This document shows positions 1 to 20,592 of a stretch of 64,000 bases of DNA, in pieces; positions within the stretch are counted from its first letter, which is position 1; the number at the start of each line of letters is the position of its first letter. Source of the stretch: Bacteroidia bacterium. GTDB taxonomy: Bacteria; Bacteroidota; Bacteroidia; Chitinophagales; Chitinophagaceae. The translations under genes were made by a program, and so were the position numbers. The stretch lies in NCBI GenBank assembly GCA_030426665.1, contig JAUHYD010000001.1:1-64000 (forward strand), written 5' to 3'. Under the pieces are notes generated by a model. It was not told where the DNA came from. It was given only the letters and a program-made list of their open reading frames with translations, and did not search any database.

Positions 1-3000
1 CGATATTTACACCCGTACCACCCGCACAATAACTACCGCCACCCGTTACACTGTGTACAACAGGAAGACTGCTCGCATTAACAATTGCGCTGCCACTCAT
101 CGTTGCTGCGCACGTAGTGGCTGGGTTGTAGGCAAGTACTGTATAAGTACCGCCGGCTGTCTGACTGCCGAAGTTCAGGGATAATCCCGTACCGGTCATC
201 ATGCTGCCGATGGCAACACTGCCATTGTACAACTGATAGGCTATACCTGACTGAGAGCCATTCAAACCAACCAATACGCCTGTACCGCCCGTGCAATAGC
301 TTCCGCCACCGGTTACATTATAAGTAGTTGGCAGGTTGTTTACGGATACCATTTTGCTGCCGCTCATCGTTGTGCTGCAACCCGATACGCCGCCGGTACC
401 AATCACCTGGTACGTACCTGCTGTCGTTTGTAAACCGAAGTCTAAACCTGCTCCTGTGCCTGCCATTGGGCTGCCTACTGCCAAGGAACCATTGTACAAC
501 TGATAGTTGACACCGGCATTGGAACCACTCAGGCCAAGGCTTACACCTTCACCACCGGAGCAATACGCACCGCCACCGGTTACATTGTAACTCATCGGTG
601 CAGCATTAGTGCTTACTGTGGCACTACCACTCATTGTGTTTTCACAACCTGTAGTAGCATTTATTCCTTTTACAAAAAAGTTACCGTTAGCAGTAATTGA
701 AGAGTAGCTTATCGCACTACCGGTACCAGCCTCAGGAACTCCCACAGCTGTCAAACCGTTATACAGTTGATAATTTACACCAACCTGCGAACTATTAACC
801 CCAATTGATACACCACCTGTACCGGCACAATAGTCACCACCACCTGTTACTGTGTACGCAGTTGGAACCGCATTTACAACAACATTTGCAGAACCCGACA
901 TGTTACGAGTACATGATGAAGATGTATTTGTCGCCATTACAGTATAAGTACCAGCCGCTGTCGCCATGCCAAAGCTCAAAGCAGCACCTGTTCCTGCCAT
1001 TGGAGCACCTACTGCGCCAGCACCGTTATATAATTGATAATTTACTCCTGTTTGAGAACCAGTCAGGTTAACTGCAACACCGGCACCACCGCTACAGAAA
1101 TTACCACCACCGGTAACTCCGTAAATAGAAGGTAGTGCATCAATTGTGATAATTGCAGAACCTGTCATCATACGAGTACAAAGCGTCGTGCTATTAGTTG
1201 CCATTACTTTATAAGTACCGGCCGCTGTCTGATTACCGAAGCTAAGTGCACCGCCTGTTCCAAGAACAACCGCACCAACCGGCATACTACCGTTGTATAA
1301 CTGATATTCAACTCCTGATGTGGAACCTGTCAAGCCCACGGTAATGCCCGTACCACCTGCACAATAATTTGTTCCTGAATAAGTAACAGTATAAAGTGTC
1401 GGCAACGCATTAATTGAAACGGTTGCACTACTTGCCATATCTGCCTCACAACCTGTAACCGCATTTACCGCATGAACTGTATAAGTACCTGCCGGCGCAA
1501 TAGAGCCGAAGCTAACAGCACCACCGGTACCCGCTACTACACTCGCCAAAGTTCCACCTTGATATAAACGATAATTAACTCCCGAGGTTGATGAACTCAT
1601 TCCTATAGCAACACCCGTACCACCTTCGCAATATTCGCCACCACCGGTAAGCGCATAAGACGTTGGTAATGGGTTGATACCGATTGAAGCACTTCCACTC
1701 ATATTATTTGTACAACCAGTAGATGTAATAATTGCAAACACCGTATATGTACCTGCCAAAGTCTGATTTCCGAAACTAATAGGAGAACCTGTACCTGACA
1801 TTGCTGTACCAACAAGTGTTGCACCATGATATAATGTATAACTAGCTCCTATAGTAGAACCACCAACACCAATCGCAGCACCTGTATCGCCAAGGCAATA
1901 GTTACCTCCACCAATTACCGGATATATTGTAGGCAATGCATTAACCACAACTGTAGCAGAACCCGACATGGACCCGGAACAACCTGTCGTTAAGTTGGTC
2001 GCAATTACAGTATATATACCTGCTTCAGTCTGAAGACCGAAATTAAGGCTACTACCTGTACCTCCAACCGGACCACCAACAGCTACACCGGAACGGTATA
2101 ATTGATAGTTAACACCTGTTTGAGAACCTGATAATGTAACGGTAAGACCAACACCACCTACACAATAACTACCACCACCACTCATTGAATATGCCGTTGG
2201 ATTTGCGTTTATTGTAATAGTAGCAGAACCGGACATATTAGAAACACAACCGTTACCATTTTCTGCCGACACCGTATAAGTACCTGAAGCTGAAATCGGT
2301 CCGGATGTAAGTGCTGCTCCCGTTCCGGACATTGTGCCTACTGCACTTGTTCCCTGATACAATGTATAGGTTACGCCTGCGGTAGAACCATTAAGCGTTA
2401 CTTCTACTCCTGAACCACCCGAACAGAAAGAACCACCACCACCAACAGTAAATACCGGAGGTGTTGCATGTACAATTACTGTCGCGCTGCCGCTCATTGA
2501 TGCAGTACAACCGTTACTGTTTGTTGCCATTACAGAATAAGAACCTGTAGTAGCAATAGCTCCAAAACTTATTGAAGAACCAGTACCCGTTACCGGTGAA
2601 CCAACCGTTGAAGCACCGTTGTATAACTGATAGCTCACACCTGCCTCAGAAGACGCAAGACCTACATCAACGCCTGCATCACCTGCACACAAAGTACCAC
2701 CACCAGTTACCGTCTGTGCGGTTGGCGTTGCGTTTATTCCAATAGTTACTGTACCAGACATATCGTTGGTACAACCCGTAGAAGAATTTTCAGCAGAAAC
2801 TGAATACGTTCCGGCTGCTGTCATATATCCGAAGCTTACAGTGCTATTTGCACCTGCAACTGATGTTACTAAAGAAGAACCATTATATAAATGATACAAT
2901 GTCCCGGCAGCACCATAAGTACAGGTAACCAAACTACCCGATCCACCGTCACAATAATTACCACCACCGCCTACTGAGTAAGCAGTTGGTAATGAGTTAA

Positions 3001-6000
3001 CACTAACCGACGAACTACCAGACATTGACACCTGACATCCGGCGCCGGCACCAGGGTTTGCAATGGCAGTATAACTACCAGCTACAGTCTGCAAGCCAAA
3101 AGACATTGGCGTTCCTGTACCGGTAATAAGACCTCCTACCGGAACCGCACCACGATATAGTTGATAACTAACACCTGCGTTAGTACCACTAATTGTAACG
3201 TCAGAACCAGTACCGCCTGCACAATATGCACCTCCACCTGTCATTGTATATACAGAAGGAACAGCCGAAATAATTACCGGAGTATAACCCGTCATATCCA
3301 CGTCACATCCGCTGCTACCATTTGAAGCAGAAACCGTATATGTACCAACAACAGACTGTAGCCCGAAGTCAAGCGCTGAACCTGTACCGGCGATAGGCGA
3401 ACCTACTGCTGTACCGTCTCTATAAAGTTGGTAATCATTACCGGTAGTTGATCCGGCAAGACCCATTGCCACACCCGGACCACCAGTACAATAACTACCA
3501 CCACCGGTCATCGCAAAAATTTCAGATGCCGAGTTAACGGTAATTGTTGCCGTATTTGATGATGTAGGGTTAGAAACGCAACCTATATCATTTGAAATAC
3601 TATTAATAGTTACGACTGTGCTTCCACTTGCCGTCAGCAAAGAACCAGGCACCGTAAATGTACCGCTCGTTGGCCCCATGATGATAACAGCCGATACACT
3701 TGTAGCGGTATTTGCACCACTTAAACTATATACAACATCGTACGTACCGGTCCCCAAAGATGTACTGTTTACGGTTACCGTAGATGGCAAATAGGCACAA
3801 ACTGTTGATGCAGATGTACCCGTGAAGTTGCTGATATCCGGACCATCGCCAACCTCAAACGAAGCGGTATTACTACTTGTTACCGGCGTAAGGCACACAT
3901 CATATTTTATTCCGGTAATGGTCACGGTTGTCGTACCATTAGAAGTTAACAATGATGATGGGATACTGAAAGTACCACTACCACCTGTCATCGTAAGCGT
4001 CGTAGAATTACCTGTCGATGAATTTGCTCCACTTAAATCGTAGAATATTCTAAACGTGTCAACACCCAATGAAGTTGAGTTAACTGTTACTACAGAACCG
4101 GAACCGGAACAAGAATTTGTAGCCGTAGGTGAAGTAAAGTCTGACACTACCGGCGAATAATAACGAACGGTAGAAACTACATTGGTTGTACTGATATCTG
4201 AGCTACAAGCCAATTTAGCTCTGTAGTACATAGTACCTACCGAAGTTATGTCCGGTGTTTGATAAGAAGAATTCGTTGCACCTGCAATAGCAGAGAAACC
4301 AGAGGAAGGACTAGATGATGACTCCCACTGATAAGTAATGCCATTTGCTATTGTTCCTCCGACATTATATAAATTACCTCTGAATAATGAACAGGAGTTT
4401 GATGGACCTACACTGATAGCACCAGCTTCCGGTGCTCCGGAGCATGTTGCCGGTCCGCCACCATTAATATAAACAGAATAGTCCCGAACCTCACCATAAG
4501 TAATAGCACTTGTCGGACAAGGGTTCATTGAAGGATAAGTGCCATTACCACAACAGTTGTAGTTACCGGTGATACGCATACGGAATGTTCCGGTAGGGGC
4601 ACCAGAAGGTATTGTCAAAGTAACTGGTACATTCGTAGAAGGAAAATCATAACCACGTCCACCTACCGTTTCATCACTGGTAAAAGAACCGTCATTGTTG
4701 AAGTCTATCCAAACCTGACAACCCATTGAATAGTAATACGACCCTCCGGTATTTACAGTTGCAGTATATGATGTAGCTGCATTGAGCGTACAAATGTAAG
4801 ATGCTGTCAAATTAGAATACCCGGTACCATTACATGCAGATGCATCTGATATAGAACCTGACTCTCCGGTCAAACTCGCAATCCTCATCCACATTGAATA
4901 CGAGGAACAAGCTGAAGACGCTGAGCTGAAAGTAGGGGTACAACTGGACGCCGCAGGCGTACCGACAAATGTTACGGAAACCGGCGATGAAGCTACCGGA
5001 TCTGTAGAACCGCAAGTTACCATACAACGGAAGTCCATGTCTTCAGACAAACCCGATGCAGTATAAGTGCTATGGATACCGTCCGGAATATTAACCCAAG
5101 TGGTTCCTCCGTCATTAGACGACTGCCACTGATAAAACATGTTACCACCGGTAGAAGCACCGGACAAACTAAGAGCAAAATTCGTAGATCCTCCACCTGT
5201 TGACGGAGATACAGTGGCGCTTCCGGCTGTTGCCCCACCGGTACACTCGGTAGCATGAGCAGAACCAGACACAGGAACAGTTACCGCAGAGGTTAACCCG
5301 CCGCCGGTAATAGATAACGCAGTAGATGCTGCGCCCGGCGCACTCGGAGTAAACTGAACATAGATATTTCCTGCTGCATCGCCTCCGGAATTAGTAAGCG
5401 TTGCAGAACTACCCCATGTTGTACCATCGGTCGATACTAAAAAGTTACTGGAAGGAGAAGTGATTGTCAAATCAGCAGAAAGGTTTATACCTGTAATGTG
5501 CGTATAACCCAACGGCACAGACACTTCATCAACTAATGCTGCATCACCCATATCAATAGTCGCAGGAATAGCTTCTGCACTTGGAGGAGGAATATACTCC
5601 CATGTATATATTGTACCAGATGAAGGAGAAGAATTAATACTAGAGTAATAAGAAGTTGAAGGGGATGATGCTGTTGTGGAAGTCAGCGTATAATAATCCG
5701 ACGTACTGTTTGATATTCCTATTGTAGCAGTTCTGCTTGAAAAGGACAGCGGACCGTACAAGAATTGAATCTTATTCGAAGTTTCATATAGCTTCACTTG
5801 GAACGTTCCATCAGACCCTGAACCAAGAGGTCTCCACCCGGAAGAGTTGCGTCCCCACTGGAAAGTGAAAACCCTATTAGGAGCACTACCCGTAGTTATA
5901 TAATAACATTGCCTGCCGGAACCCGTCAAGTCATCCCAAAAAGGCATCAAACAACCAACAGCACTGTTTGGCAAATTAGAAATAGAGGAATTGCTATACG

Positions 6001-8402: not shown

Positions 8403-8434
8403 TTGTAAGATGTAAAAGTGAATACGTACATTTG
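8403..8434 (+). promoter_or_regulatory. Candidate Bacteroidota-type promoter upstream of the riboswitch
   Basis: TTG at 8403 and TACATTTG (TAnnTTTG) at 8427-8434, just before the riboswitch. Confidence 0.45.
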
Positions 8435-8439
8435 CTGCT

Positions 8440-8606
8440 GCAACGGTTTCCGCCTTGGCGGAATTAAAAGGGAATCAGGTGAAAATCCTGAACATTTCCC
8501 GATGCTGTTAGCTCCTATACAGTTTTTTGCATCCTGTATTGCCACTGTTCAAATTTAGCTTGAATGGGAAGGCCGCAAAAAACGGAGTAAGTCAGAAGAC
8601 CTGCCT
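8440..8606 (+). ncRNA. Cobalamin (B12) riboswitch
   Basis: Contains aaaagggaatcaggtgaaaatcctgaacatttcccgatgctgt ... gccactg ... tgaatgggaaggccgcaaaaaacggagtaagtcagaagacctgcc. This matches the conserved cobalamin riboswitch order (GGGAA, GGTGAAAaTCC, CCCG..GCTGT, GCCACTG B12 box, TGGGAAGG, AGTCAGaAGACCTGCC). It precedes a TonB-receptor operon. Confidence 0.93.
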
Positions 8607-8750
8607 TTGCATGCCGGAAGAATCCGGTACTTATCGCTGCTTTCGGGAACAAAAGCACAGATAAGACAAGGGCAATAGTACATGCCTTTATCTTCATCTG
8701 ATTTTCACCCTTAGCTGCATTAAAATTGTTTTTTAAAAACCAATTTCAAT

Positions 8751-9761
8751 ATGCGCAAAGTAACAATCATGCTGGCCTCAATTCTATTGGGCGCTGTAGC
8801 ATCAAAGGCACAAACGGTAGCCTCGTTCGAATCGTTAAGTCTGGCACATGCGGACACGTTTTACACCAACTACACAGCCTCCGGAACCGATGTAGGTTTT
8901 GACGACGGGCTTGTACATTTCCCATGTGTCTATGACACTTCATGGGGTGGGTATTGGGAACAAGGCTTCGCCTACTCAAACATGACAGATAGTGTAACAA
9001 GCGGTTATACAAACGACTATTCAGCAAAACCGGCAACCGGATACGGAGGGTCAGAAAAGTATGCAGTTTCTTACTGCTATAATCCCACAACCTTTGAAAA
9101 TACTACTAAAGTTCACCTGACCGGAACTGCCATTGGGCACCCGGTTAAAGGCTTCTATGTGACAAACAGCACGTATGCTTTCAACAGCATGAGAGACGGT
9201 GACGCATTTGCAAAGAAATTCTACAGCGGCGACTGGTTTAAGTTGATGGTGAAAGGTTTCTACGAAGGAAGTCTGAAATCAGATAGTGTACAGTTCTATC
9301 TTGCAAATTTTCTTCAACCCGATTCTAATGACAACTACATTGTAAATACATGGGAGTGGGTAAACCTTGAACCGCTGGGCAAAGTAGACAGTCTTGTATT
9401 CTCGTTGTCGTCCTCTGACACCGGTTCGCTGGGCATGAATACACCGGCATACTTTTGCATCGACAACTTTACAACATACGAATCGTATGATACAACTACA
9501 CCACCCACTGCAGTAGTTTCAGAAAAATCAGATGTTATTAAATGTTACCCGCAACCAGCTCAAAATTTACTCTATGTTGATTTGCCGACTAATGCTAATG
9601 CACAATTTACAATAGTCGATATTTCCGGTAAAGTAGTGGCACAACAGTATACAAACACAAAACACAATTCAATCAATACTGCAGGATTGACACCCGGGAT
9701 ATATATTCTGCAAATAAGTAGTTTTGGGAACAAAGCAACCATTCGATTTATCAAAGAATAA
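8751..9761 (+). CDS. DUF4465-like surface protein with T9SS C-terminal sorting domain
   Basis: Signal peptide. WGGYWEQGFAYSNMTD...DWFKLMVKGFYEG...VQFYLANF...WEWVNLEPLGKVDSLVFSLSSSDTGSLGMNTPAYFCIDNF is typical of DUF4465. Ends with a T9SS domain (KCYPQPAQNLLYVDLP...GLTPGIYILQIS...FIKE). Confidence 0.85.
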   Translation: MRKVTIMLASILLGAVASKAQTVASFESLSLAHADTFYTNYTASGTDVGFDDGLVHFPCVYDTSWGGYWEQGFAYSNMTDSVTSGYTNDYSAKPATGYGGSEKYAVSYCYNPTTFENTTKVHLTGTAIGHPVKGFYVTNSTYAFNSMRDGDAFAKKFYSGDWFKLMVKGFYEGSLKSDSVQFYLANFLQPDSNDNYIVNTWEWVNLEPLGKVDSLVFSLSSSDTGSLGMNTPAYFCIDNFTTYESYDTTTPPTAVVSEKSDVIKCYPQPAQNLLYVDLPTNANAQFTIVDISGKVVAQQYTNTKHNSINTAGLTPGIYILQISSFGNKATIRFIKE

Positions 9762-9820
9762 TATTTTCACGGCAGCTATACACAATGTATGGCTGCCATT
9801 TTTTAATATCGAGAAATACC

Positions 9821-10819
9821 ATGAGAAAGATTGCGCTCATTTCGCTATTACTGAATTCATATCTGGCACCTGCCCAGTATGCTCCCCAGGCAGGCCTTGC
9901 CGGCAGTACAGCTGTTAGTGCAAGCAGTAGCGACATTGTAGGGTGGGCCTCTGGGTGCATTGTCAACAGAGGCTACATAGACATTGCTAATCAATCGCTG
10001 GGATATGTAACAGGCGGCGACGCATCGAACGGTGTTGGCGCATCAGATGGCGCAGTGGTAAGTTTAGGCGATAGCGGAGTAGCCGTACTTTCCTTCCCCT
10101 CAGCTATATATAACGGTCCCGGCCCGGACTTCGCGGTATTTGAAAATGGATTCATCGACCCGGCCAACCCTTCTGCTGCATTCCTGGAACTTGCCTTTGT
10201 GGAAGTAAGTTCAGACGGCATTAACTATTTCAGATTCCCATCACACTCCAATACCCCTACAAATACGCAAATACCCGGCTCCGGAGTATATATGGATGCC
10301 ACGCTGATCAATAATCTAGCCGGCAAATACATCTCCCATTTTGGCACTCCTTTTGACCTTGAAGAACTAAGTGGAATTTCCGAACTTGACATAGACAATA
10401 TCACCCACGTACGACTCATAGATGTTGTCGGTAGTACTACTACTCACACCACCTTCGACGATGCCGGAACAGTAATCAACGACCCCTACCCTACCAACTT
10501 TCCGACCGGTGGTTTCGACTTAGATGCAGTAGGAGTAATGCATCGGCATAGCACCATTATTAAATCGGAATTGGCACCGTTTGGGGTAAGTGTCTATCCT
10601 AACCCGGTAAAGGATCGGCTCTATATTTCTCTAAACAATAAAACGACGAATGAACTGCACCTCTCCCTAACATCCTCGGTGGGCCAGACAGTTTTACAGA
10701 GTACCATTAGCGGCGAACATGCAACAATAAACATAGCAGAGTACCCGGCGGGAATGTACTATCTTGCCATTACCGACACAAACGGAAAAAAATGGGTTGG
10801 AAAAATATTAAAATACTAG
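9821..10819 (+). CDS. Secreted surface protein with T9SS type A sorting domain, likely corrinoid-locus associated
   Basis: The track gives start 9785, but MRKIALISLLLNSYLAPAQ at 9821 is the better signal peptide. Ends with VSVYPNPVKDRLYISL...YPAGMYYLAITDTNGKKWVGKILKY. Confidence 0.8.
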   Translation: MRKIALISLLLNSYLAPAQYAPQAGLAGSTAVSASSSDIVGWASGCIVNRGYIDIANQSLGYVTGGDASNGVGASDGAVVSLGDSGVAVLSFPSAIYNGPGPDFAVFENGFIDPANPSAAFLELAFVEVSSDGINYFRFPSHSNTPTNTQIPGSGVYMDATLINNLAGKYISHFGTPFDLEELSGISELDIDNITHVRLIDVVGSTTTHTTFDDAGTVINDPYPTNFPTGGFDLDAVGVMHRHSTIIKSELAPFGVSVYPNPVKDRLYISLNNKTTNELHLSLTSSVGQTVLQSTISGEHATINIAEYPAGMYYLAITDTNGKKWVGKILKY

Positions 10820-11856
10820 CTCCATTCCTACTATTGTTGGCTTGCGTAAAAGACAAGCCCAACACCGTAACTTCAACCAACACAGCAAACGGCAATGTGT
10901 ATATTGTTTGTGAGGGCAATTTCGGTAATGGAGACGGAACACTCTATTCTTACAATTCAGAAACTGACAGTGTCTACAGCGACTTATTCCGTAACGCCAA
11001 CGCACAGCCTCTCGGCGATGTATTTCAGAGTATCAATAGAATAGGAGACAGCCTTTATTTGTGCATCAACAACTCAGACAAAATATTAGTATTAAACGCC
11101 CTTGACAAAAGCCTGAGTGGGGTAATAAGCCTACCTAAACCAAGGTATATATTGCCTGTTAGCAATACTGTTGCCTATGTGTCATCCCTCTATAACAACA
11201 AGGTATACATCATTAATCCAAAAACAATACAAATAACAGGAACAGTAAGCCAGCCATACATCAATACTGAGGGCTTGTGTCTGAACGCCGGCACTATCTA
11301 TATAGCTGTTTGGGATACTTCCTGCAGCCAGATCTATGCTACAGATGCATTTTCAAACAGCATTTCGAAAACTATCAACATCAATAGCTTTGCCCCCCAC
11401 GATGTGCTCATTGACAAAGAACAAATGCTATGGGTACTGTCAGGAAATCCTACCAAAGGACGACCATCAGCGCTATATCGCATAGATCCGTCAACAGGAA
11501 ATATTCTTAAAGAATACAAATTCGACTCAGAAACAGACGCGATAAAACCGGTGTTTAATGCGACAAAAGACACACTTTACTTTATCGCGGTAAAATATGA
11601 TGGCACAACAAAAAATAACGGCATTTACCGAATGAATATTTCGGCCAATGAATTGCCATCCGCCCCATTTGTACAAGCAGAAAAATATCAGTACTTCTGG
11701 GCGCTTGGCATTGCACCGTCTTCCGGATATATTTATGTCGGAGACCCGAAAGGATTCACACAAAAAGGGGTTGTAACAATCTACAAACAAGATGGCACAA
11801 TATTTAAAACATTCAAAACGGGAGTAGGGCCGGGACAATTCTACTTCAGCGAATAA
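10792..11856 (+). CDS. YncE/DUF5074-like beta-propeller lipoprotein, BtuG-like
   Basis: Lipobox (LLLLACVKDKP). Propeller-type repeats (NVYIVCEGNFGNGDGTLYSYN..., YILPVSNTVAYVSSLYNNKVYIINPKT...). It lies directly upstream of the TonB receptor in the riboswitch operon and overlaps the previous CDS by 28 nt. Confidence 0.75.
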   Translation: MGWKNIKILAPFLLLLACVKDKPNTVTSTNTANGNVYIVCEGNFGNGDGTLYSYNSETDSVYSDLFRNANAQPLGDVFQSINRIGDSLYLCINNSDKILVLNALDKSLSGVISLPKPRYILPVSNTVAYVSSLYNNKVYIINPKTIQITGTVSQPYINTEGLCLNAGTIYIAVWDTSCSQIYATDAFSNSISKTININSFAPHDVLIDKEQMLWVLSGNPTKGRPSALYRIDPSTGNILKEYKFDSETDAIKPVFNATKDTLYFIAVKYDGTTKNNGIYRMNISANELPSAPFVQAEKYQYFWALGIAPSSGYIYVGDPKGFTQKGVVTIYKQDGTIFKTFKTGVGPGQFYFSE

Positions 11857-11866
11857 CTGCCTGCCC

Positions 11867-13789
11867 ATGCGCAAAAAAGCAAACATACCGCCGCTGGCCC
11901 ATTCGTGCTTTCTCCTTTGCCTGAGCATTTTTACGACCATCGCATGCCGGGGGCAGGTACATCACGATACGTTAATGTCCGTGGACATCAGAGCTAAGAA
12001 AAAAGTGTCATCGGAGGCACGTCTGGATGTATTTTCTTCCGGCCAAAAAATCAGTAGTATAGACAGTACAACCCTTCAGCAATACAGCAATCAAAGTATA
12101 GCGAATTTGATATCGCAACAACTACCGGTATTCGTAAAGTCGTACAGCTTTAACGGCCTGGCAACGGTATCATTCCGCGGGGCGTCTGCAGCGCAGTCGC
12201 AAGTAATGTGGAACGGGGTACCAATCCGAAATGCAGCACTTGGTGTTGCAGATATTTCCACCTTGCCCGTACTCTTTGCAAACAAAGTAAATGTTGTGTA
12301 TGGCAGCTCCGGCGCACTATACGGCAGCGGAAATATTGGTGGTGCTTTACTTATAGAAAGCGAAAAAGCAATTTTTGACACCGGGCATAGAAGCCTGTCT
12401 GGGAGTTTCGGCACCGGAAGTTTCAATCAGTTTTCCGGCAGCATAAAAGGGGCCATCTCAAGAAAAAAATGGTATCTATCTGCAAATGCATTTACACAAA
12501 CTGCACAAAACAATTACCCCTACAAAACGTCGTCCGGGAGCGAACAGAAAATGCAAAATGGACGATTACAAAGTGTATCTGGAATGATGAAGACCGCTTA
12601 CAAACTTGACAACAATAACGTCGTTGACATCAACCTCTGGTACCAGCAATACGCCCGACAAATACCACCTGCTTTATTTGAACCTTATTCTGTAAAACAC
12701 CAGGAAGACAATTCATTCCGCACAGTGGCAAAATGGACACATAATGCCACGAGACATAACTTGTATGCAAAGGCATCGTTTATCTCAGACTTGATAAAGT
12801 ATGAAGACTCTTCCGTTCAACTTAGCACGTCCAACCAGGTACATCAGTATTATATTGAGACAGGCTGGAAGCAAATATTAGGCAATAATACACAACTGCT
12901 CGTTTTCACGCCTGTTCAGTTGTCGGCCCTGCCGAATGGCGTGGATTCACAAAAGCAAACACGCTTTGCTTTGGCTACTGCACTTAACCGGAAATTCGCA
13001 AACAAGAAGGTTGATTTGTCTGTGCAGGCACGTGCCGAATTAATTAATAACACCAAGATATTCTTACCCGGATTTGGACTCTCTTATCGCATTGCTGAGT
13101 GGCTCGGTTTGCGAGGAAATATACAACGTACTTATAGGGCGCCATCGCTTAATGAGCTATATTACTTCCCTGGTGGCAACACAAACCTCAAACCTGAAAA
13201 TGGCTGGAGCGGCGATATGGGTTATAGGGCGACGGCACACTCAGGGAAACTGTCTTTTATTCACGACCTCAGCGCATTCTCTCGTAACATTAACGACTGG
13301 ATTGTATGGCTGGGAGGCGCTGTATGGACACCCCATAATCTGGCAAAAGTTCACAGCAGGGGGGTAGAAACTGAAAACAGGATTGCGTACAAAACAGGGA
13401 ATTGGCGCATCAACCTTTCCGTTAATACTTCCTACATTCTCTCAACAACCACCGCAAGCTATGTGATTGATGACGCATCAATAGGCAAACAAATTCCATA
13501 TGCGCCTCGCTACAATGGGCGATTAATTCTGGGGGTAAACTTCAAGCAGCTTTACGTAAGCTACAACCACTCCTACACAGGCTACCGATTTATTACTACT
13601 GACGAATCTGCCTATCTTGAACCCTATCAGACCGGCAATATACTTGCCGCGTATACATTTGACATTAACAAAATAAAGCTACAGTTGAATGCTCAATACA
13701 ACAACATCTACGGAGCGAACTATAGCGTAGCGGGATTTCGCCCTATGCCGCTGTCTAACTGGATTACAGGGATAAGAATCACGCTTTGA
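11867..13789 (+). CDS. btuB-like: TonB-dependent outer-membrane receptor, BtuB-like
   Basis: Plug domain (TVSFRGASAAQSQVMWNGVPIRNAALGVADISTLPVLFANKVNVVYGSSGALYGSGNIGGALLIES) and C-terminal beta-barrel. Last gene of the cobalamin-riboswitch operon. Confidence 0.88.
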   Translation: MRKKANIPPLAHSCFLLCLSIFTTIACRGQVHHDTLMSVDIRAKKKVSSEARLDVFSSGQKISSIDSTTLQQYSNQSIANLISQQLPVFVKSYSFNGLATVSFRGASAAQSQVMWNGVPIRNAALGVADISTLPVLFANKVNVVYGSSGALYGSGNIGGALLIESEKAIFDTGHRSLSGSFGTGSFNQFSGSIKGAISRKKWYLSANAFTQTAQNNYPYKTSSGSEQKMQNGRLQSVSGMMKTAYKLDNNNVVDINLWYQQYARQIPPALFEPYSVKHQEDNSFRTVAKWTHNATRHNLYAKASFISDLIKYEDSSVQLSTSNQVHQYYIETGWKQILGNNTQLLVFTPVQLSALPNGVDSQKQTRFALATALNRKFANKKVDLSVQARAELINNTKIFLPGFGLSYRIAEWLGLRGNIQRTYRAPSLNELYYFPGGNTNLKPENGWSGDMGYRATAHSGKLSFIHDLSAFSRNINDWIVWLGGAVWTPHNLAKVHSRGVETENRIAYKTGNWRINLSVNTSYILSTTTASYVIDDASIGKQIPYAPRYNGRLILGVNFKQLYVSYNHSYTGYRFITTDESAYLEPYQTGNILAAYTFDINKIKLQLNAQYNNIYGANYSVAGFRPMPLSNWITGIRITL

Positions 13790-15165: not shown

Positions 15166-16971
15166 TTACTCAACATTTAACCGCATAACAGCACGTCTGT
15201 TTTCTGCTCTGCCTTCTTCAGTGTCATTGCTTGCAGCAGGGTCTTTCTCGCCATGGCCAACAACTTTAATTCTTGAACCATCTGCACCCATATCAACCAA
15301 TTGCTGCTTAACAGCATTTGCTCTTCTTAGCGACAAACGCTTGTTGTAAGATGTTCTTCCTCTTGAGTCAGCATGACCATGAATCACTACAATTGCATTC
15401 GCATCGTCAGCCAGCGTCTTAACCGCTACTTCAAGTACAGGCATTGATGACTCCTGAACAACAGTTTTGTTGGTTTCAAACAAGATAGGAGTCGACAACG
15501 GTACAGCAGGAGGCGGAGGTAACGGACATCCGTTATTGCTTGCAGGACCTGCCACGGTAGGACACTCATCTTTATCGTCAGAAATGCCATCACCATCTGT
15601 GTCAGGACATCCTTTGAACTTAGCCAATCCCGCTTCGTCAGGGCAAGCATCCTTCTTATCCGTTATTCCATCACCATCACGGTCAGGGCAACCATTCATT
15701 CCTTTAGAACCTTTCTCGTATGGACACTCATCTTCCTTATCAGGAATTCCATCTCCGTCAGAATCAGGACAACCATGGAAAGCAGGAAGACCTGCAACGG
15801 TACGGCAAGAATCCTCAGAATCCTGAATGCCGTCTTTGTCTGTATCCGGACATCCTTCAAATTGCTCAAGTCCCCATACATCAGGACACTTGTCATGTTT
15901 ATTCGGAATACCATCGCCGTCAGTATCTTTAAGCTTACCAAACAAGAAGCGAACACCAACGCTACCACCAAACGACTGCACTATATTAGATGATACGTTG
16001 TTCAGCGATGAACTATATTCCATGTTGGTGTTCATTAGCGCATAGTTGCTTACATTATCATTCTTGAAAGACTGATACATGTAATACACTCCGAAATTGA
16101 AAGCAAATTTATCCGACAGGTACCAGCTTAAAGCAGGACGTACTAAGAAACCTATCGAGCCGGTTGTATAAGACACATCGCTCTTAGAATTTGTAGGCTT
16201 TTGAGACAACCCTACATTATATCCTGCGTCACGCTGTTGTTGAAACAGTGTATTTATGTCTACTCCGGGTTGGTGAGTAGCAAGCGCATTCCGTGTAATC
16301 AAATCAGACGTCGGAGAAAAACCGGGATCTGTATCATAAACTGTTGCACCACCATTAGTACCATCCGACCCTGTGTATTTGTATACTGCTTCATAGTCAA
16401 AATTGCCATTCATTGTGGTTGTATTCTTCATCTGAAGATTAATAACCGGACCTGCATCAGCAGTAAATCCTAAACTCTTAGAGAACCTGTATTTGTACTT
16501 CAGCAATATCGGTAAATTAAGGTTGGTGATTTTCACCGACTCCTTAACATTGTTACCGGTTATCAACTGACGATAAACATCATTGTCAGCATCAGTTGCC
16601 TGATACTCAACATGATAGTTATCCAAAGAGAAGTCACCTTGCTGGGACAAATACATAAATCCGAGACCTACGCCCCAATGGCATTTAGGACCGAAAAAGT
16701 ACCCAATCTGAGCATCGAAACCAAAGGAACTACCTTTATCAAACGACAAGTTACCTGTATTGAGATTCAAACCATTCAGATAGCCGGAAGTAGACGTACC
16801 TGTGGTCGGGTCTTGCGTCATAATACCACCCAAAGCGTTCACATCAATGAACCATCTGGACAAGTCTGCATCTGTAGTATAGTCTGCCGACATCTTTTTC
16901 TCAGTAGTTTTCTGCGCTATTGAAGAAAACGCTACAGAAGCTGCGATAAACAAGAAAAATATCTTTTTCAT
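15166..16971 (-). CDS. OmpA-family protein with N-terminal beta-barrel and thrombospondin type-3 repeats
   Basis: DTDGDGIPNKHDKCPDVWGLEQFEGCPD repeats, then an OmpA C-terminal domain (VIHGHADSRGRTSYNKRLSLRRANAVKQQLVDMGADGSRIKVVGHGEKDP). Confidence 0.92.
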   Translation of the reverse strand: MKKIFFLFIAASVAFSSIAQKTTEKKMSADYTTDADLSRWFIDVNALGGIMTQDPTTGTSTSGYLNGLNLNTGNLSFDKGSSFGFDAQIGYFFGPKCHWGVGLGFMYLSQQGDFSLDNYHVEYQATDADNDVYRQLITGNNVKESVKITNLNLPILLKYKYRFSKSLGFTADAGPVINLQMKNTTTMNGNFDYEAVYKYTGSDGTNGGATVYDTDPGFSPTSDLITRNALATHQPGVDINTLFQQQRDAGYNVGLSQKPTNSKSDVSYTTGSIGFLVRPALSWYLSDKFAFNFGVYYMYQSFKNDNVSNYALMNTNMEYSSSLNNVSSNIVQSFGGSVGVRFLFGKLKDTDGDGIPNKHDKCPDVWGLEQFEGCPDTDKDGIQDSEDSCRTVAGLPAFHGCPDSDGDGIPDKEDECPYEKGSKGMNGCPDRDGDGITDKKDACPDEAGLAKFKGCPDTDGDGISDDKDECPTVAGPASNNGCPLPPPPAVPLSTPILFETNKTVVQESSMPVLEVAVKTLADDANAIVVIHGHADSRGRTSYNKRLSLRRANAVKQQLVDMGADGSRIKVVGHGEKDPAASNDTEEGRAENRRAVMRLNVE

Positions 16972-16998: not shown

Positions 16999-19900
16999 TT
17001 ATTTTTTTACAAACTTAGAAGCACCGATTTTCACACCTTCCATGTAGCACTCTACTATATAGATGCCTGAAGGCAATGATGCAACATTGATATCGGCTTT
17101 ATTATTCACTGTATTTGTATTAGCGATAACCTGGCCAAGCATATTCAACACTTCAATGTGAACATCACCTACTGCTTCTGTCGTCAATTCTACATTAATA
17201 GAATAGGTTGCTGGATTAGGGAAAATATTAACTGACGCTATATCATCATTAATATTGCTAACAACTCTTGGAGTATTATCCGCTGGTTTGTTGTAATACG
17301 CTTTTCTCATGCAGTCGCCAGAGTTAACCATTACCCAGTAATGCTTACCGCTGAAATCAGGTGTACTGTTAAAGTAACTCTGCCCTGTCTCACCATCCAT
17401 AACTACTGAATCAAGAGTTATAGCATCATCATATCCCCACTGAAAATCCTTAACATCGTTACGCAAACAAATGAATTTACCTTTTCTGTATATCACTGCT
17501 GGCATTGGAGCGGTCGAACTATTTACATCAACAGTATATGAAGTTTTACCTACACAGCCCGTAGCGCCAATAGTAGAAGAAAGTGTTATTACAGCAGTAC
17601 CTGCAGTATTAAAGTTCACGATACTGTTTTGATTATCACTTCCTGTGGCATATATCTCCGCATTTTCGGCACTCCAGGTATAAGTAACTCCGGTAGCCGG
17701 CGCACTTTCTGCACCAAAGTTCTGGTACAGCGTTCCCTCACACAATGATGAAGGAGGCATAATACCTATAACCGGGGCTGCCGCTGCAGGTCTTACCGCA
17801 ACATTTACAGACTGTACATTTGTACACGAAGCTCCTACCGTTAGTGTGTATACGTATATCACGTTTATTGTACCTGTAGTGCTGTTAATCAAAGTCTCAT
17901 TAATAACTCCCGAATCAGCGGCAGACGTCGGTGATATTCCGGCAACAGCCGTACGACTCCATTCAAAACTCACAGCCGGATTGGTTTTAGTATCAGGATT
18001 GTAAACAAACGGCAAGTCAGAACAAGCACTATCAACCAATGCAGTTGGCAACAATTCAGGTGTTGGATGTACCAAAACATTTACCGTTTGCTCGTTAGAA
18101 CAGCCGTTTGCCGTAAGTGTATATATGTAAGCAACATTTACATTAGCGTAAGTTGTATTGTCCAGCACTTCATTTACAGCAAAGGTATCGTTACCGGCAA
18201 GTAATTCTATTCCACTAACATACGGACGACGCCATTTAGCACCAAATCCCACAGTAGCACAAGATGGAGTAAATGCAAATATTGTACTATCACAAATTGG
18301 AGTAACCGGCGAGTTAGTCAACTTAGGCCTTGGGTTAACAACAACTACTACACTCTCTGAGTTAGAACATCCATCTATGGTTGTAGTAAACTGATAAGTC
18401 ACTGCAACAGTAAATGATGCTGCACTTCTTAACCGCTCACTCGGGTTATTAGTACCACTTGCAGCAGGATTGGTTATGTTAGTAACCGCCGCACGTGACC
18501 ATGCATATGTAGCACCGGGGGTGTTGCTTCCGGGGTCGTAATCGAAGAAATTGCTATCACATATAGCAGGAGGTGTCAAGGTAGTGTTCAGCGTAGGTGT
18601 TGGGTTTACAGTAACCATTACTTGCTGAACGTTGCTACAACCATTCGCAGCCAGCGTGAAGTCATAAACAACCGTCATCTGCGTATCGGTAGTATTTGTA
18701 TGCCCCTCATGTACGGTGTCACCGCCCGTCGCATACGGACTTGAAATACCGGCGATTGCCATACGCTCCCATGATATGGTAGTACCTGCCGTAAGGCTGG
18801 CTGCACCATAGTCTAAAGTATCATTATTACAAATTGAAGAAAGAGTCAATGATGAACTTAATTTTGGTGTCGGATTAACAACTACCGACACAGTCTCCGT
18901 TGTCATACAACCGTTGATATGCAACGTATCTACATAATCCACAGTAATCGGATCAGGTGTACTGTTGAACAGCATTTCATTGATGTCATCAACACCACTG
19001 GCATCAGGATTAGTAATACCTGTAACCGATGCCCTGCTCCATGAATAAGTTACTCCGGGTGTTTGACTGTTTTGTAAAAATGAAAAAGTGTCGCCATCAC
19101 AAATTGTACCTACAAGCGGTGTAGGGAAAAGCGTTGGAGTAGGATTAACTGTTACGGTTACAAACTGTGAATTTGTACATCCGTTTGCTGTAAGAGTGTA
19201 AGTATAGGTAACTGCTACCGGATTTACAGTAGTATTGTCAAGACTTTCACTTATCGAAACTGAACCTGAGGTGCCTGCCCCGAAAATACCGAATACTGAC
19301 GGACGACTCCACATAAATGTGGTACCGGAAACCGCACTTGCAGCTGTATAATCGAATAAAGCGTTGTCGCAAATGTACCCTATAGTAGTATCACTACTCA
19401 ATGTTGGCGTTGGGTTTACAGTTATCACGAACGTATCCATTGCGCCAGAACATCCGTCAAGTTTAGGTGTTACGACTACCATAGCTTCCGTAGCGGAAGT
19501 TGTACTATTCATGGCAGTGAATGAAGCAATATCACCTATTCCGGTCGCTGCCAAACCAACTGAAGTATTATCGTTCGTCCAGTCAAAGGATGTTCCGATT
19601 AATGAACCGGAAAAGCTCACGGCTATAGTGGCGGAGTTATTACAAACGGTCTCATCAACCGTAGCATTTACGTCAGGTAATGGCTTAACCGTTACATATA
19701 TTGTCACAGTCTCCGTAATGTTGCCATCTGTAACGTCAACCATAAATGTATCTGCCCCGTCATACCCCATGTCCGGAGTATAGGTCATTCCCATTGGAAC
19801 AACTGTCGAGCCTGTGGTTGTATCACTGTACGCAACCGATAGCGTACCGTGCATAGGTGCTGTATTCTCACTCCACGTCAATGTATCTCCTACCGACGGA

Positions 19901-20124
19901 TCATCAACAGACAGAACGGTATTTATGTCATTGCTTCCTGAGCTGCTACAGACGGATATCGTGTTTGTTGGGCCGCCCGTGAATGTAAGGCCACTGGTCG
20001 GAGACGCAAAAGCAGGAATTCCGAATAGCAACATGCCCGCACACAGTACAGATTTCCCAAAAGACTTTAAGGCTTTTTTGTGGTTGCAGGCAACAGTTTG
20101 GAGATAAAAGTTTCTTAGCTTCAT
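16999..20124 (-). CDS. PKD/Ig-like repeat surface protein with T9SS type A sorting domain
   Basis: Repeated ...VTVNPTPTL...ICDxxxFxYxxxSxTxGxTYxWSRxxVxGI... units. C-terminus ASVNIFPNPATYSINVELT...LPSGIYIVECYMEGVKIGASKFVKK. ATG at 20124 is a better start than the 20154 in the track. Confidence 0.85.
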   Translation of the reverse strand: MKLRNFYLQTVACNHKKALKSFGKSVLCAGMLLFGIPAFASPTSGLTFTGGPTNTISVCSSSGSNDINTVLSVDDPSVGDTLTWSENTAPMHGTLSVAYSDTTTGSTVVPMGMTYTPDMGYDGADTFMVDVTDGNITETVTIYVTVKPLPDVNATVDETVCNNSATIAVSFSGSLIGTSFDWTNDNTSVGLAATGIGDIASFTAMNSTTSATEAMVVVTPKLDGCSGAMDTFVITVNPTPTLSSDTTIGYICDNALFDYTAASAVSGTTFMWSRPSVFGIFGAGTSGSVSISESLDNTTVNPVAVTYTYTLTANGCTNSQFVTVTVNPTPTLFPTPLVGTICDGDTFSFLQNSQTPGVTYSWSRASVTGITNPDASGVDDINEMLFNSTPDPITVDYVDTLHINGCMTTETVSVVVNPTPKLSSSLTLSSICNNDTLDYGAASLTAGTTISWERMAIAGISSPYATGGDTVHEGHTNTTDTQMTVVYDFTLAANGCSNVQQVMVTVNPTPTLNTTLTPPAICDSNFFDYDPGSNTPGATYAWSRAAVTNITNPAASGTNNPSERLRSAASFTVAVTYQFTTTIDGCSNSESVVVVVNPRPKLTNSPVTPICDSTIFAFTPSCATVGFGAKWRRPYVSGIELLAGNDTFAVNEVLDNTTYANVNVAYIYTLTANGCSNEQTVNVLVHPTPELLPTALVDSACSDLPFVYNPDTKTNPAVSFEWSRTAVAGISPTSAADSGVINETLINSTTGTINVIYVYTLTVGASCTNVQSVNVAVRPAAAAPVIGIMPPSSLCEGTLYQNFGAESAPATGVTYTWSAENAEIYATGSDNQNSIVNFNTAGTAVITLSSTIGATGCVGKTSYTVDVNSSTAPMPAVIYRKGKFICLRNDVKDFQWGYDDAITLDSVVMDGETGQSYFNSTPDFSGKHYWVMVNSGDCMRKAYYNKPADNTPRVVSNINDDIASVNIFPNPATYSINVELTTEAVGDVHIEVLNMLGQVIANTNTVNNKADINVASLPSGIYIVECYMEGVKIGASKFVKK

Positions 20125-20592
20125 AATATAAAAGATAAATCGGTTATTGTACACAATAAATCAATGGCAAAAATAGAATAAGTTATACAGACTAACTACT
20201 GTTTTTTAGAGAAAAACTTAATTTGTTGATTAATTGTACATTAACTCACCGATAAAATTTGTCTAATGTAATTCCGGCAAAAAACGCTAATCGAGCATTG
20301 TATTCAACCCGGTGATTCAAACAACATTGCATAATATTTCCTAATATACTACTTCCGTTCATTCATGCAAATATTTCGTTCTATTCGGACAACCAAACAA
20401 AAAAACCGAACTGACTTCAATGCAGGCAAGTAACAAAATGCAGTGTAGCGCATTGAATAATATCCACAAAGCGAATCTTTAATGGCTGCATAATAGAATT
20501 ATTGTTTGTTAAATATTTTACCATCTACCTTAATCTGCCGCAAAATGTAACGGAAGTTATTACTTTTGAAACTTGACTATTAAACGCCCCAC

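Follow-up and report, generated by a model that had tools for sequence, protein, structure and literature searches.

A cobalamin-riboswitch operon of a Chitinophagaceae bacterium with two type IX-sorted proteins as candidate vitamin B12 capture factors

Surface capture of vitamin B12 in Bacteroidota is known from the lipoproteins of gut Bacteroides. The locus described here raises the question of whether this capture can also be served by cargo of the type IX secretion system (T9SS), and by which proteins. It is located at positions 8403-13789 (+ strand) of the first 64,000 nucleotides of contig JAUHYD010000001.1 (assembly GCA_030426665.1, a Bacteroidia bacterium of the Chitinophagaceae); this whole stretch is hereafter called the window. 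A cobalamin riboswitch is followed by four genes, numbered 1 to 4. There is good reason to consider them as a B12-repressed operon, in which T9SS-displayed BtuJ- and BtuH-like capture proteins would feed a BtuG-BtuB importer. Strong sequence evidence backs the regulation and the export, and also the families assigned to genes 1, 3 and 4. The hand-over from genes 1 and 2 to BtuG-BtuB and the handling of B12 by gene 2 are what we infer from it. Gene 2 is the new part: it belongs to an undescribed family, called U2 below.

The operon and its genes 1, 3 and 4

The features of the locus are the following.

8403..8434, + strand: Bacteroidota-type promoter, with the -33 TTG at 8403-8405, a 21-base spacer and the -7 element TACATTTG at 8427-8434
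8427..8623, + strand: cobalamin riboswitch aptamer (RF00174, cmscan), with the B12 box at 8590-8605
8751..9761, + strand: gene 1, 336 residues, putative B12-capture protein of the BtuJ family (DUF4465), with Sec signal, DUF4465 and T9SS type A sorting domain
8940..9470, + strand: DUF4465 domain of gene 1 (PF14717)
9435..9455, + strand: HI-loop motif MNTPAYF of gene 1, with the position of the B12-contacting Tyr, read in the sequence
9546..9758, + strand: T9SS type A sorting domain of gene 1 (TIGR04183, residues 266-336)
9771..9797, + strand: terminator-like hairpin between genes 1 and 2, with a 12 bp stem followed by ATTTTTT
9821..10819, + strand: gene 2 (U2), T9SS-sorted, undescribed family, predicted galactose-binding-like beta-sandwich (profiles, fold prediction)
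9875..10552, + strand: core domain of U2 (alignments A1, A4 and A5)
10127..10153, + strand: conserved motif DFAVFENGF of U2, the N and last F of which align with BtuH2 Asn399 and Phe401
10592..10813, + strand: T9SS type A sorting domain of gene 2 (TIGR04183)
10792..11856, + strand: gene 3, 354 residues, BtuG2-type beta-propeller lipoprotein (PF16819), with the lipobox LLAC followed by VKDKP, read in the sequence
11867..13789, + strand: gene 4, 640 residues, BtuB2-type TonB-dependent cobamide receptor (Plug and TonB barrel, PF07715 and PF00593)

RF00174 is matched with 102 bits (gathering score 31.5, E 2.2e-24) and the aptamer is complete, i.e., model positions 1-189 of 189, B12 box included. 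It is the sole Rfam match within the window; the genome total is two. The -7 element corresponds to the first 8 bases of this match, i.e., the 5' edge of the aptamer. TAnnTTTG at this edge is near-invariant across 20 aligned riboswitches, of which only 6 have a correctly spaced -33 TTG. By analogy with known riboswitches of this type, the operon would be repressed by B12, a low cobamide level permitting expression beyond the riboswitch; riboswitch reporter data are available for Bacteroides thetaiotaomicron (PMC12751083).

The four open reading frames (ORFs) are closely packed: gene 3 begins 28 bp before the end of gene 2, and 10 bp separate it from gene 4. The longest ORF of gene 2 begins at 9785. 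This start was dropped because its ATG falls within the hairpin 9771-9797, and 9821 is thus the likely start. A similar hairpin is present at 6 of 54 other gene 1/gene 2 junctions. It is therefore not a general feature, and a terminator acting as a general switch at this place was discarded. In the present operon it could possibly leave gene 1 more strongly expressed than the genes behind it by reducing read-through.

The order riboswitch-DUF4465-U2-BtuG-BtuB is retained in the neighbourhoods fetched, and more distant relatives show variants of it. A scan of contigs yielded at least 549 relatives of U2, of which the best 80, i.e., the closest relatives, were used for the counts of loci. The commonest architectures, in which RS is the riboswitch and J, G and B are the Btu proteins, are RS-J-U2-G-B (17) and RS-J-U2-G (10). 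Of the 80 loci, 60 have a same-strand B12 box at a distance of at most 6 kb, as judged from a letter pattern that missed a few riboswitches later found by cmscan (e.g., L101 and L084). The count is 69 loci for BtuG or BtuB and 73 for one or more B12 elements. The conservation of the riboswitch and of the four-gene order in relatives is thus far beyond chance.

A preliminary description, made from the letters of the window alone, had proposed a B12-riboswitch uptake operon of four packed same-strand genes with a BtuG-BtuB pair. The gene calls and families agree with it throughout, the riboswitch is recovered by RF00174, and the four-gene order is kept in relatives. One outcome that it had named as refuting, a lack of co-occurrence of the T9SS genes with the riboswitch, is not what is observed, given the 60 of 80 loci with a B12 box. 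Its framing in terms of a non-gut lineage is too narrow, since gut and faecal Bacteroidales metagenome-assembled genomes (MAGs) also have the arrangement: T9SS-tailed U2 proteins occur in riboswitch loci of rumen, horse-faeces and roe-deer-gut MAGs (L100, L105, L114 and L123).

By its sequence, gene 1 is a member of the BtuJ family. It matches PF14717 (DUF4465) at 1e-53, with 182.8 bits against a cut-off of 25. Its relatives in the PDB are 9hmu (1e-25), 9qpm and 9fct (BtuJ1), and the whole domain is shared with BtuJ1 (9fct), BtuJ2 (9i2l) and D5EK51 (9hmu) at E 1e-20 to 1e-25. The HI-loop motif of the family is also present in gene 1; in DUF4465 proteins, (G/N)TPAYF is critical and holds the B12-contacting Tyr (PMC13398666). 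Binding of B12 is documented for BtuJ1 and BtuJ2 of B. thetaiotaomicron (PMC12751083), for DUF4465 members of several phyla, one of them from Fluviicola, and altogether for all eight DUF4465 proteins with published data, which are distant from gene 1 (PMC13398666). It is on these relatives that B12 binding by gene 1 would be expected. The property itself is not new, having been published in 2025/2026 (PMC12751083, PMC13398666). The characterised B. thetaiotaomicron members are lipoproteins, whereas gene 1 has a T9SS sorting domain.

Gene 3 matches PF16819 (DUF5074) at 3e-14 and its best relative in the PDB is BtuG2 (8p97_B, 4e-41 over 334 residues, 18-351). The best relatives of gene 4 are 8p97_A and 8p98_A, i.e., BtuB2 (1.7e-48); its match to TIGR01779 (1e-26) is under the equivalog cut-off. 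These matches bear out the BtuG-like DUF5074/YncE-like lipoprotein and the BtuB-like TonB receptor already seen in the preliminary description. With the BtuG2-BtuB2 complex (8p97), genes 3 and 4 share full-length homology, gene order and a lipoprotein lid beside a receptor; they differ in that they are only about 30% identical and come from a Chitinophagales-type bacterium. As in the family members tested elsewhere, gene 3 would bind B12 and gene 4 would import it.

Predicted type IX export and the proposed capture route

There is strong sequence evidence that genes 1 and 2 are T9SS type A cargo, in line with the earlier proposal that both accessory proteins are delivered by this route. TIGR04183 is matched with 55.5 bits (4e-15) by gene 1 and 42.9 bits by gene 2, against a cut-off of 23. 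The N-terminal Sec signals of both were judged by eye. The genome encodes the translocon protein SprA (2452 bits). In the fetched loci, the T9SS tail is present on 66 of 67 DUF4465 proteins, on 92 of 99 U2 proteins and on none of the 81 BtuG homologues. The soluble capture proteins would thus use T9SS, and the receptor lid is without T9SS tail. This split in anchoring is seen in MAGs, those from the gut among them, as well as in isolates, filed under Chitinophagales, Bacteroidales, Flavobacteriales and Cytophagales. T9SS is not mentioned in the DUF4465 papers (PMC12751083, PMC13398666), and searches of the open-access literature for T9SS together with B12, judged by titles, abstracts and term counts, brought up no T9SS-exported B12 binder.

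The genome of the host speaks for such a system. It contains (i) NrdJ, the class II, B12-dependent ribonucleotide reductase (contig C18); (ii) the second cobalamin riboswitch (G000:C28:57077-57296, locus L002), upstream of nrdB of the B12-independent class I enzyme; (iii) SprA. CbiC, needed for de novo corrin synthesis, is absent from the genome. It follows that the host is a B12 user, probably unable to synthesise the vitamin, and equipped for type IX secretion.

The proposed route is the following. When cobamide is scarce, the riboswitch would permit expression of the operon. The products of genes 1 and 2 would be exported by Sec and then by T9SS via their C-terminal sorting domains, and would end up as surface-anchored or as released proteins. 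The BtuJ-family protein of gene 1 would capture B12 and U2 would bind B12 or hold it for transfer. Both would hand it to BtuG (gene 3, the lid lipoprotein), and BtuB (gene 4) would import it with TonB, as in B. thetaiotaomicron, where BtuG-to-BtuB transfer and TonB import are described (PMC10404256).

The two operons of B. thetaiotaomicron used for comparison are BtuJ-BtuH-BtuL-BtuG-BtuB and BtuK-BtuH-BtuB-BtuGH-BtuJ. The features in common with the present locus are a cobalamin riboswitch, a BtuG-BtuB pair, a DUF4465 protein and a BtuH or, in the present case, putatively BtuH-like protein in one transcription unit. The differences are that here (i) the soluble capture proteins have T9SS sorting domains instead of lipoprotein signals; (ii) the putative BtuH-type protein has a short core, about 225 residues long, and neither PKD nor propeller domains; (iii) there is no BtuL, and btuFCD is outside the operon. 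Across much of Bacteroidia, surface B12 capture would be the task of type IX cargo, an arrangement for which the papers searched gave no description. If this is true, type IX secretion, usually associated with enzymes, adhesins and gliding, serves vitamin scavenging too, and competition for cobamides in soil, water and non-Bacteroides gut communities gains an additional layer of surface binders.

Gene 2: probable kinship to the BtuH domain and ties to cobamides

Besides its T9SS tail, gene 2 has no accepted Pfam or NCBIfam domain, U2 has no sequence relative in the PDB (phmmer and hmmsearch), and nothing was matched in a plasmid search. Three identities were ruled out: a relative of DUF4465 (no profile match), the LIC_13355 lipoprotein NF033170 (27 bits against a cut-off of 120), and BtuL (no similarity to the protein at the BtuL position of the Bacteroidaceae operon L137). 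The family is widespread. A relative of gene 2 is present in 32 of 34 genomes of the same genus, the two exceptions being 85% and 59% complete. U2 concerns about 30% of the sampled Bacteroidia genomes, has no Pfam domain model, and now has a functional hypothesis.

Profiles and predicted folds both suggest, weakly but in agreement, a kinship with the B12-binding BtuH domain. When the U2 profile is compared with 185 ORFs of Bacteroidaceae cobalamin-riboswitch loci, only four reach E<0.05 (best 1.7e-5), and each of these four has a BtuH domain. The profile-profile comparison of U2 with BtuH (hhalign) gives E 2e-4, the common segment being VSLG-GG..(I)..F...I.N..G.DF.(V/I)..N.F. The conserved Asn and Phe of U2 (FEN-x-F) align there with Asn399 and Phe401 of BtuH2 (numbering offset of 100 taken from the alignment), which touch the phosphate and the lower ligand of B12 in 7biz (PMC8941943). 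The AlphaFold2 model of U2 is a confident beta-sandwich (pLDDT 92.6, pTM 0.91). Among 350,542 PDB chains, Foldseek ranks BtuG1 (8blw_B) first (E 2.3e-3). The model of a second U2 protein, of rumen-type Bacteroidales and 55% identical, also has 8blw_B as first match (E 9.8e-5); the probability is 1.00 and TMq is 0.43 and 0.46 for the two models. BtuG1 of B. thetaiotaomicron has a C-terminal BtuH domain (PMC10404256). U2 thus has the BtuH-bearing BtuG1 (8blw) as top fold match and BtuH as a weak but specific profile match. It differs from BtuH (7biz; H domain of BtuG1) by the lack of a significant pairwise match in sequence, by a shorter core, by Trp/Tyr/His contact loops that are not alignable, and by a T9SS tail in place of lipidation, without PKD domains.

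The genomic context points in the same direction. Since the best 80 loci are those of the closest relatives, a class-wide sample is the fairer test of linkage. Among 149 Bacteroidia genomes, U2 is present in 44, DUF4465 in 37 and both in 32 (Fisher p 1.5e-17, a descriptive value that ignores relatedness). RF00174 is no more than 6 kb away from at least 28 of the 45 U2 copies of this sample, the chance expectation being about 0.2 by our estimate, which assumes a 4 Mb genome, approximately, with one or two riboswitches. For RF00174, BtuG or DUF4465 taken together, the number of copies at this distance is 33. DUF4465 and U2 are fused as one ORF in three loci (L074, L103 and L126), with one recognised T9SS tail in the first two. 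U2 stands immediately behind its own cobalamin riboswitch in five loci: L206, L207, L098, L084 and L208. The last one (- strand, 1973-5869) has the order riboswitch-U2-CobT-CobS-histidine phosphatase. The tie of U2 to cobamides is therefore independent of BtuJ and BtuG. U2 is also kept when neighbours and gene order vary, the first position being taken by DUF4465, DUF4430-type or propeller-like T9SS proteins.

Several points weigh against this reading. The link to BtuH is weak by each single measure. The hhalign probability is 47% over 54 columns. The Foldseek TM values of 0.43-0.46 are accompanied by a high root-mean-square deviation, and Foldseek does not report which portion of BtuG1 is matched. 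The crystal structure of BtuH2 (7biz) is absent from the Foldseek top 50, and the other structures of similar fold are F5/8C and CBM32 domains, which bind carbohydrates and lipids. Among the BtuH contacts, only Asn399 and Phe401 fall on conserved U2 residues; Gln333, Tyr510, Trp511, Trp577 and His476 are unplaced. In the class-wide sample, 12 of the 45 U2 copies are alone, without detected riboswitch or B12 gene nearby. BtuL, a lipoprotein of a B. thetaiotaomicron B12 locus, does not bind B12 (PMC12751083), and membership of such a locus is therefore no proof of binding by itself. All things considered, U2 is probably a remote homologue of BtuH, and it is somewhat likely to be a cobamide binder. 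The preliminary description had taken both T9SS proteins as candidates for corrinoid binding: this is upheld for gene 1, which falls in a published family of binders, and is somewhat likely for gene 2.

Two different roles of gene 2 have to be considered. U2 could be a B12-regulated structural or scaffold protein that does not bind B12, e.g., positioning BtuJ near BtuG-BtuB or acting in surface or vesicle assembly. BtuL, which binds no B12 and affects vesicle release, has been proposed as such a case (PMC12751083); the DUF4465-U2 fusions could equally reflect a scaffold or an additional site of binding, and the predicted fold is that of a general binding module. This role is nevertheless unlikely, as U2 is found without an adjacent BtuJ, either by itself behind a riboswitch of its own (L206, L207, L098 and L084) or with CobT-CobS (L208), as its similarity is to BtuH-domain proteins and not to the protein at the BtuL position, and as its best conserved motif falls on B12-contacting residues of BtuH2. 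Far less probable is a carbohydrate-binding or adhesion module of the F5/8C or CBM32 type with no cobamide role. Such modules are frequent in T9SS cargo, they make up most of the Foldseek matches from rank 2 downwards, and both the 12 unlinked U2 copies and the U2-like partial repeats in large proteins of other families agree with it. Against it stand BtuG1 as top structural match on two occasions, the fusion to DUF4465 in three loci, the five U2 genes directly behind a cobalamin riboswitch, and the retention of U2 when neighbours and order change.

The fate of genes 1 and 2 after export is a separate matter. Release into the medium is known for some T9SS cargo, and type A sorting domains usually lead to anchoring on lipopolysaccharide. 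Both proteins could be secreted B12 traps or vesicle cargo, as BtuJ1 and BtuJ2 work on vesicles in B. thetaiotaomicron (PMC12751083); they share, however, an operon with the receptor, which favours a cell-bound use. Release is the less likely of the two fates and would be compatible with capture of B12 by these proteins for the BtuG-BtuB importer. The chances are about even for a broader view of this capture system: gene 2 would found a family that extends through Bacteroidota, is exported by T9SS, binds cobamides and represents a divergent form of BtuH or its ancestral one. In this view it would form, with DUF4465, DUF4430-type and propeller-like proteins, an external capture layer built by T9SS, and the lipoproteins of gut Bacteroides would be a variant of this layer.

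Variants of the locus and neighbouring observations

Tandem-repeat T9SS-tailed proteins take the place of DUF4465 behind the riboswitch in L105 (8757-9947), L100, L114, L091, L048 (1286-2851) and L050 (7620-9599). The L105 protein matches DUF4430, a domain that resembles the C-terminal domain of animal transcobalamin and intrinsic factor. A 262-residue protein of a Bacteroidaceae B12 locus (L179:6373-7158) is related to these proteins. The repeat protein of L048 and L050 is probably not BtuH: it has no PDB match and its profile does not match the BtuH proteins; that its relative in L105 is a DUF4430 protein also speaks against this identity.

Directly 5' of U2, a T9SS-tailed protein that can be read as a YncE-like beta-propeller is found in L083 (4486-5751), L107 (910-2178), L113 (8559-9935) and L121 (2105-3379). 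Further such proteins occur in L112, L117, L125, L128 and L132. Where a riboswitch is seen, the proteins of all these loci lie behind it. The propeller part has no Pfam match where tested. These proteins are possibly a T9SS-sorted analogue of BtuG.

The fusion locus L074 (JANLJF010000121.1) is filed as Azovibrio restrictus and carries a B12 operon of Chitinophagales type; this contig is probably a mislabelled or contaminated MAG. In L208, a T9SS-tailed protein is at the head of an operon for nucleotide-loop assembly. As for the stand-alone U2 genes (L194-L205, e.g., G152:C1, G129:C4, G087:C9 and G185:C20), the T9SS tail is detected in 11 of 12. In a few families, partial U2-like domains are present in many copies per genome, several of them within large proteins (G049, G062, G109, G146 and G179), and apparently represent a wider superfamily of surface modules.

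In the window, downstream of the operon, the - strand at 16999-20154 encodes a 1051-residue protein with several Ig-like repeats and an apparent T9SS-type tail. Its neighbour (15166-16971) is an OmpA-like protein with repeats of the calcium-binding type.

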